Below are positions 23,649 to 30,965 of a stretch of DNA of 43,401 nucleotides, one piece after another. A model generated the notes under the pieces. The model saw nothing but the letters and a program-made list of their open reading frames with translations. It searched no databases and was not told where the DNA came from. The stretch is from NCBI GenBank assembly GCA_013298715.1, contig JAAFIQ010000025.1, positions 1-43,401 on the forward strand, written 5' to 3'. The translations under genes and the position numbers were made by a program. The DNA is from Bacteroidota bacterium (lineage in GTDB: Bacteria > Bacteroidota > Bacteroidia > B-17B0 > Aurantibacillaceae). Each line of letters begins with the position of its first letter. Position 1 is the first letter of the stretch.

Positions 23649-24242
23649 TCACTTTTGGCGCTTCTTAAGCACAGCTTCAATATCTTTTAAACTTTTTCCT
23701 TTGGCTTTTAGTAATAATAGGTAATGAAAAAGTAAATCGGAGGCTTCTTCTAAAAATAATTCATCGTTGTTTGTAACGGCTTCAATTACTGTTTCTACAG
23801 CTTCTTCACCTACTTTTTGAGCCATTTTATTTATGCCTTTATTAAACATTTTGTTTACGTAAGATCCTTCAGTAGGGAAGTTAATGCGCTGTTCAATAAT
23901 GTTCTCGAGTTCGTAAATAAATCCTGTTGCTTTATTTTTCTCCTCAAAACAAGTGTCACTTCCTGTGTGGCAAACAGGTCCAACAGGGTTTGCGTAAATT
24001 AACAACGTATCTTTATCGCAATCTAATTTTATATCAAACACATTTAAAAAATTTCCACTCTCTTCGCCTTTCGTCCAAAGTCTATTTTTACTTCTCGAAA
24101 AAAAAGTAACTTTTTTTGTCTCTAAGGTTTTTGCCAAGGCTTTGCTATTCATGTAACCCAACATTAAAACTTTTTGCGTTGTGTTATCTTGAATTATTGC
24201 TGGAATTAAACCATCTACTGATTTTGTAAAATCTGGATTCAT
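23649..24242 (-). CDS. hisI: Bifunctional phosphoribosyl-AMP cyclohydrolase / phosphoribosyl-ATP diphosphatase
   Basis: HisIE carries out steps two and three of histidine synthesis: hydrolysis of PR-ATP to PR-AMP and opening of the adenine ring. The first about 105 residues are the cyclohydrolase, with [16 protein letters not shown] and the metal-binding DCDKDTLLI and [14 protein letters not shown] cysteine segment; the rest (about 108-197) is the diphosphatase, with [10 protein letters not shown] and [12 protein letters not shown]. The 197 residues are normal for the fused form. It is the last gene of the operon and its ATG overlaps the hisF stop by four bases. A small hairpin (TGACCAA/TTGGTCA) spans the stop codon but lacks a T run. 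Confidence 0.95.
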
Positions 24243-24991
24243 CGTATTGAAATATGTTTTTGTTTTAAATAATTTTTTAGATCAAAAATTGAAATTTCGT
24301 TGAAGTGAAAAATACTTGCTGCTAATGCTGCATCTGCTTTGCCTTTTTCAAACACGTCGAAAAAATGTTCTTTTGCTCCTGCACCACCACTTGCAATAAC
24401 AGGTATATTAACGCTTTCAGAAATTGCAGCAGTAATGTCAATCGAAAAACCATTTTTTGTACCATCGCTATTCATTGAGGTTAATAAAATCTCTCCAGCA
24501 CCTTCGTTGCAAACCTGTTTTGCCCAATTCAATGCTAGTAATTCCGTCTTTACTTTTCCTCCGTTAGTAAAAACGTACCAATTGTTATTTACATAATTTG
24601 TATCAATGGCAACAACCACACACTGACTTCCAAAAGTTTGTGCTAAATCGTTCACCAAATTTTTATTGGTAACAGCTGACGTGTTTACAGAAATTTTATC
24701 AGCGCCACAATTCAATAAATGCGAAACATCTTCAACACTATTAATACCACCACCAACTGTAAACGGAATATTAATCTGTTTAGAAATTTGCATCACCAAT
24801 TCTGACAGTGTTTTTCTTTTTTCGTTAGTTGCAGAAATATCTAAAAAAACCAATTCATCTGCACCTTGCTCACTATATAATTTTGCTAATTCAATAGGAT
24901 TACCGGCATCTCTTATTGATTCAAAATTAATGCCTTTAACGGTTCTGCCGTCTTTAATATCCAAGCAAGGTATTATTCGTTTTGTTAGCAC
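24239..24991 (-). CDS. hisF: Imidazole glycerol phosphate synthase, cyclase subunit
   Basis: HisF is the TIM-barrel half of the synthase; with ammonia from HisH it turns PRFAR into imidazole glycerol phosphate and AICAR. The 250 residues start [20 protein letters not shown] with the catalytic Asp at 11; the second catalytic Asp is in VVVAIDTNY near 130. Phosphate-binding glycines are in FTVGGGI and IASGGAG. It lies four bases after hisA and overlaps hisI by four bases, so translation is coupled. Confidence 0.96.
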
Positions 24992-24995
24992 AGTA

Positions 24996-25721
24996 TTAGT
25001 TTTTTTTAATCCAGTTTTTTAATTCGTTTAATGTAATTTTATTTTCGTAAAGTGCTTTACCAACAATTGCACCTTTGCAACCTATGGTTTTTAACTCATC
25101 TAAATTTGTTAAACTATTTACACCACCACTTGCAATAAAATGCAACATAGGAAATGTAGCAATAATTTTTTTATACAATTCATTCGACGTGCCTTGCAAC
25201 ATGCCGTCTTTACTTATGTCTGTGCAAAAAGCTTGCGTAAGATTATTTTTTAAAGCTTCTTTTAAAAAATCCATAATAGAAATTGTTGTTTCTTCAATCC
25301 AACCAGAGATGGCTAATTTCTCATCTTTCACATCTGCACCTAACAAAAGTTTATCACTTCCATACTTTTTAATCCACTCATAAAACAATTGAGGTTCTTT
25401 CACCGCAATGCTTCCAAGTGTTGCTATTGCAGCGCCCGAGTTAAAAACAACTTGCAAGGCCTTCTCGTTTTTTATTCCTCCACCAAAATCAATTATCAAT
25501 TTTGTTTTTGAAGCCAGTAATTCAAGTACTTTCCAATTCACTACTTCGCCTTTTTTTGCACCATCTAAATCTACCAAATGCAAACGGGTAATACCTACAT
25601 CTTCAAATTGGAAAGCTACTTCTAACGGGTTTTCGTTGTAAATAATTTTTGCAGCGTAATTGCCTTGTATAAGACGCACACATTTTCCTTCAATTAAATC
25701 TATGGCTGGTATTATTTGCAT
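24996..25721 (-). CDS. hisA: Phosphoribosylformimino-5-aminoimidazole carboxamide ribotide isomerase
   Basis: HisA performs the Amadori rearrangement of ProFAR to PRFAR, step four. The 241-residue TIM barrel begins [17 protein letters not shown] with catalytic Asp 8; the second catalytic Asp lies in [10 protein letters not shown] near 130, and the phosphate sites are in DFGGGIK and [10 protein letters not shown]. It is homologous to HisF, and the two genes are adjacent. One base separates it from hisH. Confidence 0.95.
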
Positions 25722-25722
25722 A

Positions 25723-26304
25723 TTATAATTCTATAAAATTTTTTAATAACCTCTCCCCTACTTCACCCGATTTTTCAGGATGAAACTGCACACCATAAAA
25801 ATTATTTTTTTGTAAGGCACAGCAAAAATCAATTTCGTAATTGCAATCGGCAATGGAGTTGTTGCTGAGTGCGGCATAATAACTGTGTACAAAATAAAAA
25901 TAACTTTGTTCGGCTATACCTTTAAACAAATTACCTTTTAAATTTTTTACGTTATTCCAACCTACATGAGGCACTTTTTGTTGAATAGAAAATTTTTTAA
26001 TCTCTGTATCAAAAATAGTCAAGCATGTTGTATCTCCTTCTTGGCTTGATTTACATAGCAATTGCATTCCCAAACAAATTCCGAGTAAAGGTTTTTTTGT
26101 AGTACTAATAAATTCGTTTAAATCTGTTTGTTTTAAATAATTCATAGCAGATGCGGCTTCGCCCACGCCTGGAAAAATAATCTTATCCATCTGATTTAAT
26201 TTAGTTATATCATCACTCACCAAAGGCGTAACACCCAAACGCAAAAGTGCATTAGCAACCGAGTGCACATTGCCTGCATTGTATTTTATTATCCCAACTT
26301 TCAT
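25723..26304 (-). CDS. hisH: Imidazole glycerol phosphate synthase, glutamine amidotransferase subunit
   Basis: HisH is the class I glutaminase that feeds ammonia to HisF. The catalytic triad is visible: C77 in LLGICLGMQLL, and H175 and E177 in VQFHPEKSGE. The oxyanion-loop region PGVGEA is at 45-50. The 193 residues are the usual length. The stop is directly adjacent to the hisA start and the gene directly abuts hisB. Confidence 0.95.
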   Translation of the reverse strand: MKVGIIKYNAGNVHSVANALLRLGVTPLVSDDITKLNQMDKIIFPGVGEAASAMNYLKQTDLNEFISTTKKPLLGICLGMQLLCKSSQEGDTTCLTIFDTEIKKFSIQQKVPHVGWNNVKNLKGNLFKGIAEQSYFYFVHSYYAALSNNSIADCNYEIDFCCALQKNNFYGVQFHPEKSGEVGERLLKNFIEL

Positions 26305-27420
26305 CTATAATAACCCTTTAGTACTTGGCAAATTCATATTTTCTTTATCGCGTTTAACTGCCATTTTAATTGATTTTGCAAATGCTTTAAAAATTGCTTC
26401 AATTTTATGGTGCTCGTTTTCTCCTTCGGCTTTTATGTTGAGGTTGCATTTGGAAGCATCGCTTAGCGATTTAAAGAAGTGAAAAAACATTTCAGTTGGC
26501 ATATCTCCTATTTTTTCACGCTTAAATTCAACCTCCCATTCAATCCAATTTCTACCTCCAAAATCTAAAGCAACTTGAGCCAAACAATCATCCATCGGTA
26601 ATGAAAAGCCATATCGTTCAATGCCAAGTTTATTACTTAGTGCTTTGTTAATTGCTTCACCTAAAGCTATACCAACATCTTCTATTGTATGGTGTTCGTC
26701 AATGTGTAAATCGCCTTGGCAGGTAATTTTTAAATCGCAACCGCTGTGTTTTGCAATTTGTTCTAACATGTGATCAAAGAAACCCAAGCCTGTTTTTATG
26801 TTCGCTTTACCTTTCCCATCCAGATTTAATTCAACACTAATTTTAGTTTCGTTGGTATTTCTGATTTGCTGAACAAGGCGTGGTGGCAATTTTAAATAAT
26901 TGTAAATCTCTTGCCAATTTTTTACTTGTTGGGAACGATTATACGGTAGCTTAATTTTTTTACTTGAGAGGAATAGTGATTTTGCGTTCAAGTTCTTTGC
27001 TAACAACACATCGGTTAATCTATCGCCAATAACATAGGAGTTTTCTAAATCGTATTTATCTGAAAAATACTTTTTAAGCATACCAACTCCTGGTTTTCTG
27101 GTTGGTTTGTTTTCCTTCTCAAAACTTTTATCAATGTGTATGGCTGAAAATTTTATGCCTTCAGTTTTTAAGGTATCTACTACAAAATTTTGTACTGGCC
27201 AAAATTTTTTTTCAGGAAAACTCTTAGTACCTAGCCCATCTTGATTTGTAACCATAACCAATTCAAAATCCAACTCGTTTGCAATTTTATTAAGGTAAGT
27301 AATTACACCTGGCAAAAATTTTAATTTCTCAAAACTATCAATTTGAAAATTAATTGGCGGTTCCCAAATCAAGGTGCCGTCTCTATCAATAAATAATACT
27401 TTTTTTAACTTCTGTTTCAT
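26305..27420 (-). CDS. hisB: Bifunctional histidinol-phosphatase / imidazoleglycerol-phosphate dehydratase
   Basis: HisB catalyses steps six and eight. Residues 1 to about 165 are a HAD-type phosphatase with the nucleophile motif FIDRDGTL (D12, D14), a zinc-site region around HIDKS...KPTRKPG, and [10 protein letters not shown]. Residues about 180-371 are the dehydratase, with the manganese-binding histidine clusters [29 protein letters not shown] and [17 protein letters not shown]. The 371 residues match the fused form of enterobacteria and Bacteroidota. It overlaps hisC by four bases. Confidence 0.96.
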
Positions 27421-28472
27421 TTGAATTTTTTTAAAAGTTGAATCAATTTTAAATTTTCTACCTCCGTTCCAATGCTTATTCGCACATGATTTTTACAATT
27501 AAGTAATTTATCTCGGTTACTAATTAAAATTTTATTCTTTAATAAGTAGTTGCATAGTGCTGTTGAATCATTTACTTCAATTAAAAAAAAGTTAGCATCG
27601 CTATCACTAATATTTTTGACAAATGAAAGTGTTTTTAATGCTTTAAATAAAATTTTCTTTTCTTGCTTTACTCTTTTTATATTTTTATTGTAAACTTTTT
27701 TCTTTGCAATGGCTTTTAGTATTGTTTCTTGCGAATAGCCACTTATATTAAATGGCGGACGAATACAATTTATTAATTCAATAATTTCTGTATTTCCAAT
27801 TAGCATTCCCAACCTTAGTGATGCAAGGCCCCAAGCTTTTGAAAAGGTTTGTAACACTAATAAATTTTTATACGTGTTTGTTAACGTAATAAAACTTTCT
27901 TTTTCTGAAAAGTCAACATAAGCTTCATCAATAACTAAAATACCAGAAAAGTTAGTAATTATTTTTTTTACTTGTTGCGCATTAATGCTTGTTCCTGTTG
28001 GGTTATTAGGCGAACATAAGAACATTAATTTTGTTTGTTTAGTTATCGCCTTTATTATTTCTTTCTCATTGAATAAAAAATTAGATGCGATTAATGGTAC
28101 TGAAATTACCCCCACATTGTTTAACTGAGCATACACATTAAACATACCAAAGGTAGGTTCGGAAATTAAAATTTGATCGTGTTTAGGTTCGCAAAACGCG
28201 CGTATTAATAAATCTATTAACTCATCGCTACCGTTTCCTAAAACAATGGTTTCTGCTTTTACCTTTTTAAGTTTTGCAATTGCTTCTTTTACTTTTTGTT
28301 GAGATGACGACGGATAACGTTCTAAGCCTTTACCCAAAGGAGAACCAAAATTATTTTCGCAATTATCTAAAAAAATAAATTCCTTATCGCTTAAGTGCTT
28401 ATCACGAATTACAGCGTAAGATTTAAACTCCAACACATTTTTGCGCGCACTATTTTTTAAATTAAATTTCAT
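27417..28472 (-). CDS. hisC: Histidinol-phosphate aminotransferase
   Basis: HisC transfers an amino group from glutamate to imidazole acetol phosphate, step seven. It is a PLP enzyme of aminotransferase class I/II, 351 residues. The PLP-binding lysine is K212 in [16 protein letters not shown]; other contacts are [11 protein letters not shown] near 79-89, SPNNPTG at 154-160, and IDEAYVDF at 181-188. The phosphate-binding arginine is in the C-terminal HVRISIGT. It overlaps hisB and hisD by four bases each. Confidence 0.95.
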
Positions 28473-29746
28473 TTTAATCGAATACTTACTGCGTTTTTGT
28501 GTGCTATTAATCCTTCTGCTTCTGCCATTAATTCAATGGTTTTACCAATGTTAGTTATTCCCTCTTTACTTAGTTGCTGAAAAGTTATTTTCTTCACAAA
28601 ACTATCTACCGATACGCCGCTGTAATTTTTAGCATAACCATTTGTTGGCAAAGTATGATTGGTGCCACTTGCATAATCGCCAGCGCTTTCGCAAGAATAA
28701 TTACCTATAAAAACAGAGCCTGCATTTATAACCTTAGTTGAAAGGTTCAACGTATCGTTACAAGCCAATATCAAATGCTCTGGTGCGTATTCGTTAACTA
28801 GTTCCAAGGCTTGCTCCAAATTAGTAACCAAAATAAATTTACTGTTTTTGATTGCTTCCAAAGCAATTTCTTGTCGCGGTAATTCTTGTAATTGTTTTTC
28901 AACCTCAGTAATGATTTCTTGTATTACGCTTTCGTTAGGGCTTACCAATAAAACCTGTGAATCTTTTCCGTGCTCTGCTTGCGATAATAAATCTGCCGCA
29001 ACAAATTTCGGAACACACGTTTTATCAGCAATAACAGCAACCTCAGAAGGACCAGCAGGCATATCAATTGCGACTTGTGTATTTGCTACCAATTGTTTGG
29101 CGTAGGTAACAAATTGATTGCCGGGACCAAAAATTTTATAAACTTTTTTTATTGACTCAGTTCCATAAGCCATAGCTGCAATTGCTTGCGCGCCACCCAC
29201 TTTAAAAATGGTTTTTATTCCTAATACATTTGCAGTGTACAAAATTGCAGGATTAATTTTCCCTTCGCTATTTGCAGGTGTACAGATTGTAATTTCTTTA
29301 CATCCAGCTAATACAGCAGGTACTGCAAGCATTAATACGGTTGAAAATAAAGGCGCGCTACCACCAGGAATATAAAACCCTACTTTTTGTATGGCAACAG
29401 ATTTTCGCCAACATAGAACGCCGGGTTGCGTTTCTATAGCCTCTTCCTTAATCAATTGCGATTTGTGAAATTTTTCAATGTTCTGCTTTGCTTGTAATAT
29501 AGCTTGTTTTAAACCTTCAGTAATTTCATTTTCGCTTGCCGCAATCTCTTCCTCACTTACTTTTAAGCTTGATAAATTTGCTTTATCAAATTTAAAAGCA
29601 TATTCTAATAAAGCTTTATCGCCATTTTTAATAACGTTTTCAATTATGGTTTTTACAACTCCATCTAAATCATCAAAATTAGCTGTTGGTCGTTTTAGCA
29701 AACTTTCCCAATCTTTTTTTTCCGGATATTTTATTGGTGTAATCAT
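28469..29746 (-). CDS. hisD: Histidinol dehydrogenase
   Basis: HisD oxidises histidinol to histidine in two NAD-dependent steps, the last of the pathway. The 425 residues are the usual length. Motifs seen: GFYIPGGSAPLFSTVLM, GVGGAQAIAA-like KVGGAQAIAAMAYG, MPAGPSEVAVIAD, DLLSQAEHG, and the zinc/substrate segment APEHLIL and GTNHTLPTNG. Its ATG overlaps the hisG stop by one base, and its stop overlaps hisC by four. Confidence 0.96.
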   Translation of the reverse strand: MITPIKYPEKKDWESLLKRPTANFDDLDGVVKTIIENVIKNGDKALLEYAFKFDKANLSSLKVSEEEIAASENEITEGLKQAILQAKQNIEKFHKSQLIKEEAIETQPGVLCWRKSVAIQKVGFYIPGGSAPLFSTVLMLAVPAVLAGCKEITICTPANSEGKINPAILYTANVLGIKTIFKVGGAQAIAAMAYGTESIKKVYKIFGPGNQFVTYAKQLVANTQVAIDMPAGPSEVAVIADKTCVPKFVAADLLSQAEHGKDSQVLLVSPNESVIQEIITEVEKQLQELPRQEIALEAIKNSKFILVTNLEQALELVNEYAPEHLILACNDTLNLSTKVINAGSVFIGNYSCESAGDYASGTNHTLPTNGYAKNYSGVSVDSFVKKITFQQLSKEGITNIGKTIELMAEAEGLIAHKNAVSIRLK

Positions 29747-30606
29747 TAAATAATCATTTTTTCTATTGGCACAACTAATATTCCTTGAGCGCCTTCGTCT
29801 TTCAACTTTTCAATTATATCCCAAAACTCATCCTCATTTATAACTGAATGAATTGAACTCCAATCTTTTTTTGCTAAGGGTAAAATTGTAGGACTTTTCA
29901 TACCAGGTAAAATTGAACAAATTTTTTCTAATTTTTTATTTGGCGCATTAAGTAAAATATATTTGTTGTTTTTAGCAGTTTGCAAGGCATTTATTCTAAA
30001 AAATAATTTTTCAAGCAAAACTCTTTTCGCCTTGGTTAAATTTGCATGTTGAATAATTACTGCTTGCGATTTTAAAACGACCTCAACCTCTTTTAAACCA
30101 TTGCTCAATAAGGTGCTTCCACTGCTTACTAAATCGCAAATAGCATCAGCCAAACCAATGCTTGGGGCAATTTCAACACTTCCACTAATTTCGTGTATCT
30201 CGGCCTTTACTTTATTCTCTTTTAAAAAATTAGATAAAATAGTTGTGTACGTTGTTGCGATTTTAAGTCCTTGTAAATCTTTAATTGATTTATACTGTTT
30301 GTCTTTAGGCAGTGCTATTGATAAACGGCATTTACCAAAACCAAGGTTCAAAGCTTTCTTAACGTTTTTATTTTTTTCAAACAAAACATTTTCGCCTACT
30401 ATTCCAATATCCGCCACACCATCTTCCACGTATTTTGGAATATCATCGTCGCGCAAAAAATAAATCTCTAAAGGAAAATTTTCTGCTTCTGTTTTTAATC
30501 TATTTAAACTGGTATTTATTTTAATACCACATTTTTGCAACAGGTTAATAGAATCTTCACTTAACCTACCCGATTTTTGTATTGCTATTTTCAACATATT
30601 TTCCAT
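29746..30606 (-). CDS. hisG: ATP phosphoribosyltransferase, long form
   Basis: HisG starts histidine synthesis by joining ATP and PRPP. The 286 residues are the long (HisG-L) form: two catalytic lobes (1 to about 205), with AIQKSGRLSEDS at the start, YVEDGVADIGIVG, and the PRPP-binding loop around DAICDLVSSGSTLLSNGL, and a C-terminal PII-like domain (about 210-286) that binds histidine for feedback inhibition. HisZ is therefore not needed. A second ATG nine bases downstream (MLKIAIQ) is an alternative start. The terminator of the histidine attenuator lies 12 bases upstream, so this gene's transcription should depend on attenuation as well as enzyme feedback. Confidence 0.95.
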   Translation of the reverse strand: MENMLKIAIQKSGRLSEDSINLLQKCGIKINTSLNRLKTEAENFPLEIYFLRDDDIPKYVEDGVADIGIVGENVLFEKNKNVKKALNLGFGKCRLSIALPKDKQYKSIKDLQGLKIATTYTTILSNFLKENKVKAEIHEISGSVEIAPSIGLADAICDLVSSGSTLLSNGLKEVEVVLKSQAVIIQHANLTKAKRVLLEKLFFRINALQTAKNNKYILLNAPNKKLEKICSILPGMKSPTILPLAKKDWSSIHSVINEDEFWDIIEKLKDEGAQGILVVPIEKMII

Positions 30607-30617
30607 TATTTAAAAAT

Positions 30618-30650
30618 AAAAAAGGCTTACTAAACAGTAAGCCTTTTTTG
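30618..30650 (-). terminator. Attenuator terminator before hisG
   Basis: On the minus strand AAAAAAGGCTTACT and AGTAAGCCTTTTTT form a perfect stem with a four-base loop followed by further T. It lies between the histidine leader peptide and hisG. The 5' arm (30636-30648) can pair instead with 30680-30691, giving an antiterminator. Confidence 0.9.
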
Positions 30651-30686
30651 GTTATTAATTTATTAATTATTACATACACAAAAAGC

Positions 30687-30734
30687 TCACTTTTTTGGTG
30701 AGTTATGATGATGTATGTGATTTAATTTATTCAT
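30687..30734 (-). CDS. hisL: Histidine operon leader peptide
   Basis: A 15-codon frame reading MNKLNHIHHHNSPKK and ending in UGA. Four of its codons are histidine: CAC, then after one Ile codon CAT CAT CAT. It lies 81 bases before hisG and just ahead of competing RNA stems and a terminator, the standard arrangement of a histidine attenuation leader. An A-rich stretch (AAAAAAGA) directly precedes the ATG, a plausible initiation region for Bacteroidota. The peptide itself is not expected to have a function beyond sensing charged tRNA-His. Confidence 0.88.
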   Translation of the reverse strand: MNKLNHIHHHNSPKK

Positions 30735-30754: not shown

Positions 30755-30790
30755 AAAAAAGCCGCAGCAATTTAATGCAAACGGCTTTTT
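30755..30790 (-). terminator. Terminator of rpmH
   Basis: On the minus strand AAAAAGCCG and CGGCTTTTTT close a stem with an inner GCA/TGC pairing and a small loop, followed by T residues. It lies 20 bases after the rpmH stop and about 20 before the his leader start, so any transcript entering the his leader from rpmH must read through it. Confidence 0.75.
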
Positions 30791-30809: not shown

Positions 30810-30965
30810 TTATTTATGCGTTTTTTCGCTACTTACGGTTAATTTTTTACGACCACGCGCTCTGCGGGCAGCAATAACTCTGCGACCATTTGGAGATGCC
30901 ATACGCTCTCTAAAACCATGTTTGTTTTTACGTTTGCGTTGCGAGGGTTGGAAGGTACGTTTCAT
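30810..30965 (-). CDS. rpmH: 50S ribosomal protein L34
   Basis: The 51-residue product starts [20 protein letters not shown] and continues with [20 protein letters not shown], the conserved core of L34, followed by a short Bacteroidota-type tail ([11 protein letters not shown]). It is a component of the large ribosomal subunit. The gene stands alone here; the dnaA, rnpA and yidC genes that adjoin rpmH in many bacteria are absent. It has a consensus promoter upstream and a terminator downstream, just before the his leader. Confidence 0.96.

Follow-up and report, generated by a model that had tools for sequence, protein, structure and literature searches.

A candidate ribosome-mediated histidine attenuator upstream of hisG in a Bacteroidota genome and His-rich leaders in its relatives

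Introduction

The his operon attenuator of enterobacteria combines a leader ORF bearing His codons with mutually exclusive hairpins and a terminator before hisG, and is represented in Rfam by the family His_leader (RF00514). In mycobacteria, transcripts can open directly with a short sensing ORF, the leaderless polycysteine leader ORF. In literature searches that covered few subscription journals and in several cases the top 20 or 25 matches, we found no phylum-wide account of his leaders in Bacteroidota; Lopatovskaya 2010, or a survey that Vitreschak and co-workers reportedly carried out earlier, may cover them.

A 2010 survey (PMC2965389) places all leader-peptide systems known before the Firmicutes cases that it added in Proteobacteria and Actinobacteria, and the excerpts consulted from a paper on his genes in this superphylum mention attenuation once, for enterobacteria (PMC8305728). 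For Flavobacterium psychrophilum, a transcriptome study reports hints that leader peptides attenuate amino-acid operons, together with a hisG 5´ element that is conserved in other Flavobacteriaceae and has no Rfam hits (PMC9723704). Given this element and the trp leader already in Rfam, attenuation is not new in Bacteroidota.

Like the enterobacterial attenuator, the locus described here has a leader ORF with His codons, mutually exclusive hairpins and a terminator before hisG; it differs in that there are four His codons, and the sequences are not recognisably related. The mycobacterial polycysteine ORFs are comparable to the near-leaderless leaders of some relatives rather than to this leader, and differ in amino acid, in phylum and in the downstream step. 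Bacteroid-trp (RF01692) is likewise a leader-peptide RNA of this phylum ahead of an amino-acid operon, but senses Trp. The Flavobacterium element shares gene and phylum with our locus, whereas the consulted parts of its description neither give its anatomy nor name it as a leader-peptide case (PMC9723704).

Results

The his operon and its leader ORF

By the window we mean the whole 43,401-nt stretch of DNA analysed, on which all features discussed below lie on the minus strand. It carries a complete hisGDCBHAFIE operon of eight co-directional genes, the product of each scoring above an NCBIfam cut-off, with hisG first (29746..30606; TIGR00070, TIGR03455), followed by hisD, hisC, hisB, hisH, hisA, hisF and hisIE (23649..29746; NCBIfam matches). 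The leader ORF, MNKLNHIHHHNSPKK (30687..30734), begins 128 nt upstream of hisG, and the order is ORF, strong terminator, hisG. A preliminary description of the locus had noted a 15-codon leader with four His codons, and a direct reading of the sequence agrees: an ATG at 30734-30732 opens 15 sense codons that end at a TGA (30689-30687), and the His codons (30705..30719) comprise CAC at 30719-30717 and CAT CAT CAT at 30713-30705, with ATA between them.

Upstream of the leader ORF, a terminator-like hairpin seen by eye (30755..30790) separates it from the preceding gene, which lies at 30810-30900 and appears by eye to be rpmH, encoding ribosomal protein L34. TTTG motifs in the loop and U tract of this hairpin might be a candidate promoter. 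The window's genome (G000) gave a single HMGL-family match, a 290-aa frame, and no match to the TrpE N-domain. In its genus (g1), hisG is present in just 9 of 25 genomes, at ten loci, and amino-acid pathways look patchy. A HisG search of viral contigs gave no relative.

Predicted pairings in the window RNA

An intrinsic terminator (30618..30649) follows the leader ORF, with arms at 30649-30636 and 30631-30618, a GTTT loop and a U tract that closes the 3´ arm. The antiterminator strand, GTGAGCTTTTT (30680..30690), includes the leader stop codon UGA and has a predicted pairing energy of -13.8 kcal/mol with the 5´ arm of the terminator. In the minimum free energy fold the same strand instead lies in a protector hairpin (30672..30718), where 30718-30709 pairs with 30680-30672 around a CTCAC (30702-30698):GTGAG (30690-30686) helix. 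Both mutually exclusive pairings of this strand, termed segment 2 in the preliminary description, and the position of the UGA within it are as described there. The coordinates given for the segments and terminator were right to within one base, segment 2 starting at 30690 instead of 30691 and the terminator arm at 30649 instead of 30648. The outer helix of the protector, absent from that description, engages the His codons themselves (30718-30712 and 30710-30709 with 30680-30672). The fold of 30750-30610, terminator included, has a free energy of -29.2 kcal/mol (z -5.44), equalled by none of 200 shuffled sequences.

The element is very probably a ribosome-mediated transcription attenuator that ties transcription of the his operon to the supply of charged tRNA-His. 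From the sequence we infer translation of the leader ORF, stalling of ribosomes within it and a response of read-through to histidine. Under a shortage of charged tRNA-His, the ribosome would stall at the leader His codons, leaving strand 30690-30680 free to pair with the terminator 5´ arm, and polymerase would continue into hisG. With histidine in good supply, the ribosome would get to the UGA within the strand and cover it, such that the terminator would fold and the transcript would end near 30610.

The predicted fold changes with ribosome position. In the fold computed with a ribosome at the first His codon, sequestration of the terminator arm is 0.87, a value reached in none of 30 shuffles; when it is placed at the stop codon, the value is 0.19, versus 0.18 in length-matched shuffled RNA. 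The suggestion that stalling acts by covering segment 1 (the CTCAC strand) did not hold, since a ribosome positioned at the first His codon leaves segment 1 uncovered; the antiterminator out-competes the 5-bp segment 1 hairpin in the fold even so. In ribosome-free RNA the protector helix is present in the fold, and the terminator arm is sequestered at 0.44, compared with 0.23 in shuffles. A ribosome-free RNA locked in the terminating state, which we also considered, is not supported by these values. The predicted ribosome-free fold of the window is leaky, and tight shut-off without translation is thus unsupported for this copy.

His-rich leaders before hisG in sampled Bacteroidota

We scanned 146 hisG upstream regions, made up of 17 of the 18 loci in a first set, 21 of another 27, 28 new loci and 80 regions chosen from listed matches. 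Left out were L016, a C-terminal HisG fragment, and L040-L045, from other phyla or with identity of at most 38%; many of the listed matches outside the 146 come from one large genus (g22). The strand and start of each locus were scripted and verified by the HisG N-terminus, and the group labels (f1, f18, f19, f21, f40) were assigned by program. As matches were ranked best first, the sample is biased to HisG proteins near that of the window.

An ORF with at least three His in seven codons precedes hisG in 127 of these 146 regions (5.4 in mononucleotide shuffles), and one with at least four in 107 (0.2 in shuffles). Leu and Ser also score in many regions at the lower threshold (90/146 and 73/146), which makes threshold 4 the cleaner test, the runner-up to His there being Ser, with 22 of 146. 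The preliminary description called such systems best known from Gammaproteobacteria; with leaders at 127 of 146 sampled hisG loci, the switch is common, not rare, in Bacteroidota. The preliminary description had looked to close relatives for conservation of the His codons, and His-run leaders were found at nine of the ten hisG loci of the genus; at the tenth, L002, a scan of 450 nt found none.

An extra sample of 33 genomes, mostly from families not sampled before, gave 30 loci, of which 11 score. These divide into 10 of the 12 loci with a window-type HisG (L225-L236) and 1 of the 18 with a divergent HisG (L237-L254), indicating that the His leader goes with one HisG type; the sole scoring locus among the latter, L239, with three His, is probably due to chance. 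At another locus, L137, a leader ORF with its antiterminator and terminator can still be made out by eye upstream of hisG, but the His run in it has decayed to NYHRFYN, perhaps reflecting loss or change of sensing.

In another reading, the choice of fold would fall not to a translating ribosome but to an RNA-binding protein or to a ligand-binding RNA of the T-box or riboswitch kind. Parts of one study describe T-boxes that control his genes in Firmicutes and Actinobacteria (PMC9413887). However, the conserved element here is the run of His codons, and the window contains no Rfam family at cut-off, RF00514 and RF01692 included. Up to an E value of 10, the search of the window returned no T-box, riboswitch or RF00514, and the top matches were sub-threshold leader-peptide families, for example Phe_leader at 28.4 bits against a cut-off of 55. 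We regard selection by a ligand or protein as highly improbable. Searched across loci, RF01692 matched one of five trp loci (the trpE locus L195) and none of 15 his loci.

Matched alternative pairing across loci

By a strict rule, a terminator follows 88 of the 127 leaders; L078, among the 88, is doubtful, and L086, L100 and L149 have terminators that are plain by eye though missed by the rule. Over 87 loci, pairing between the leader strand that a stalled ribosome would leave free and its own terminator arm averages -10.1 kcal/mol, versus -7.46 with permuted partners (sd 0.25; best of 2000 permutations, -8.26), in a test affected by kinship, as loci of the same family have shared arms. When other loci's arms were swapped in, the own arm ranked in the top 10% in 29 of the 87 loci and worse than half in seven, with a median rank of 0.20; the window ranked at 0.01. 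Plainly distinct matched pairs nonetheless occur, among them GGTAAGC/GCTTACC, TCAAGCG/CGTTTGA, CAGGTAG/CTACCTG and GAGAATGG/CCGTTCTC. The alternative pairing, for which conservation had also been anticipated in relatives, is thus kept as an antiterminator strand matched to its own terminator.

The dependence of the predicted fold on ribosome position recurs across these 87 loci, the median sequestration of the terminator arm being 0.70 when the ribosome sits at the first His codon and 0.18 when it sits at the stop. The stalled value exceeds the shuffled mean in 79 loci, and at most 10% of shuffles are as high in only 56. The mean for the stop-codon state, 0.19 versus 0.22 in shuffled RNA of the same length, reflects the covering of the strand and nothing finer. 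Without a ribosome the mean is 0.32, versus 0.39 in shuffles, and lies below shuffles in 62 loci. With the stop codon in the A site, half or more of the antiterminator strand would lie under the ribosome at 77 of 87 loci, against a fraction of 0.61 expected from random placement, in line with the earlier proposal that full translation blocks the antiterminator. The stop codon itself overlaps the strand in 34 of 87 loci, the window included (expected fraction, 0.21).

These results bear on an alternative role for the leader ORF, in which it would serve only to reload ribosomes on hisG and the hairpin would be an unregulated terminator. One study (PMC4833913) proposes that leader genes close to structural genes boost translation through reinitiation, with Bacteroidetes showing a peak at 11-14 bp. 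In the present case some 80 nt separate the leader stop from hisG and a terminator lies between them, His stands out among amino acids at threshold 4 (107 loci, the next being Ser with 22), and leader strand and terminator arm are a matched pair. These points argue against reinitiation as the sole function and leave it, in our judgement, very unlikely.

Pairing of the terminator helix reaches 98.6% in an alignment of 24 relatives, and the helix covaries, with seven two-sided changes, a number equalled in none of 500 shuffles; the count of pair types in this helix is not above shuffles. The antiterminator helix is 90.5% paired in the same alignment, which is not above its own shuffles, with slid registers reaching 64% at best, and it has no covariation above shuffles.

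Variant leaders

A distinct arrangement characterizes leaders that we label Cytophagales-type, from records such as those of Roseivirga, Mangrovivirga and Cyclobacteriaceae and their look-alikes. In Roseivirga and look-alikes, Leu-Ser or Ser-Ser comes after a terminal His cluster, and a hairpin loop holds the stop codon. Fourteen his leaders show this form (L021, L023, L026, L029, L030, L032, L033, L034, L039, L074, L078, L081, L088 and L091), and no terminator was found in them save a doubtful one in L078. In its 7-bp version, the stop-loop hairpin is 91.8% paired over 14 sequences, with six two-sided changes, a count that none of 500 shuffles reached; one slid register equals it in two-sided changes and has a higher covariation score at 75.5% paired, and the codons involved are also under peptide constraint. 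Six sequences folded singly each give a helix of 7-9 bp whose loop contains the stop (z -1.8 to -4.0). A second, GC-rich hairpin lies downstream, and its consensus lacks a U tract.

Other families vary in different ways. Family f18 has a compact form in which, by eye, a weak hairpin directly follows the leader. The long His-rich leaders of family f40 (L230-L233, L235) carry Gly between His clusters, as in HHGVHHLHQGHHHA, and no terminator is visible in the stretch inspected at these loci.

Promoter spacing and near-leaderless starts

Transcription starts were predicted from a -7 box with the spacing found in Flavobacterium johnsoniae, for which parts of one study place the G of the box TAHHTTTG at -5 (PMC6847099); where boxes were equal, the one giving the shortest 5´ UTR was taken, for leaders and ordinary genes alike. 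In three species of the phylum, short 5´ UTRs are reported to be uncommon: leaders exceed 10 nt on 87% of predicted F. johnsoniae transcripts (PMC6847099), 5´ UTRs under 10 nt are rare in B. thetaiotaomicron, at about 3.7% (PMC7366714), and leaderless mRNAs are rare in F. psychrophilum, at 5.5% (PMC9723704).

The predicted 5´ UTR is 0-6 nt for 7 of 9 his leaders in the window's genus, 11 of 12 in family f19 and 14 of 16 of the Cytophagales-type, together 32 of 37, compared with 15 of 156 ordinary genes in 20 stretches of related genomes under the same rule; the Fisher value of 6e-20 overstates this difference, as the three groups were chosen after the sequences had been seen and the leaders are related. 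The corresponding counts are 8 of 28 for family f21, 0 of 8 for f18 and 13 of 54 for the rest, giving 53 of 127 his leaders over all groups. By raw count, 26 of 30 trpE loci (L195-L224) are preceded by a Trp-rich leader ORF (WWW, WRW, WW), in a set where L200 is doubtful and L209 has too little sequence; 14 of the 26 have a predicted 5´ UTR of 0-6 nt.

The window's own leader has no acceptable -7 box, and a start within 6 nt of it was accordingly rejected; the nearest TTTG, by eye, would put its 5´ UTR at about 15 nt. Lack of a box is what might be seen in a relic, a copy that had lost its promoter or its response while hisG came to be transcribed otherwise. The leaky protector of the window would fit such a history, as would the decayed His run, noted by eye, in the leader of another species (L137). 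Against decay, the terminator, the antiterminator and all four His codons of the window are intact, and its pairing is among the best matched of the 87 (rank 0.01). We therefore think it most improbable that the window copy is a relic.

Discussion

Our data favor ribosome-mediated transcription attenuation for the hisG leader of the window, and the interest of the finding lies mostly in the wider pattern, less in this copy. The pattern is less familiar in one respect: three of the six groups compared mostly have leader ORFs that open 0-6 nt after the predicted transcription start. This promoter spacing, present in many relatives and not in the window copy, points to leaderless loading of ribosomes. 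We tentatively suggest, as a possibility that we hold to be somewhat doubtful, that in large parts of Bacteroidota the first codon of His and Trp attenuators, AUG or GUG, lies 0 to ~6 nt from the transcript 5´ end, so that the sensing ribosomes load leaderless as the RNA exits polymerase, and that the Cytophagales-type His sensor has dropped the U-tract terminator for a hairpin looped at the leader stop.

The survey indicates that histidine sensing through a translated leader is usual before hisG in the sampled Bacteroidota with a window-type HisG, and is not a proteobacterial speciality. Leaderless loading, if true, would give this phylum, which does not use Shine-Dalgarno initiation, a solution to the coupling problem, and these leaders make testable the question of how a ribosome in such bacteria loads fast enough to match polymerase.
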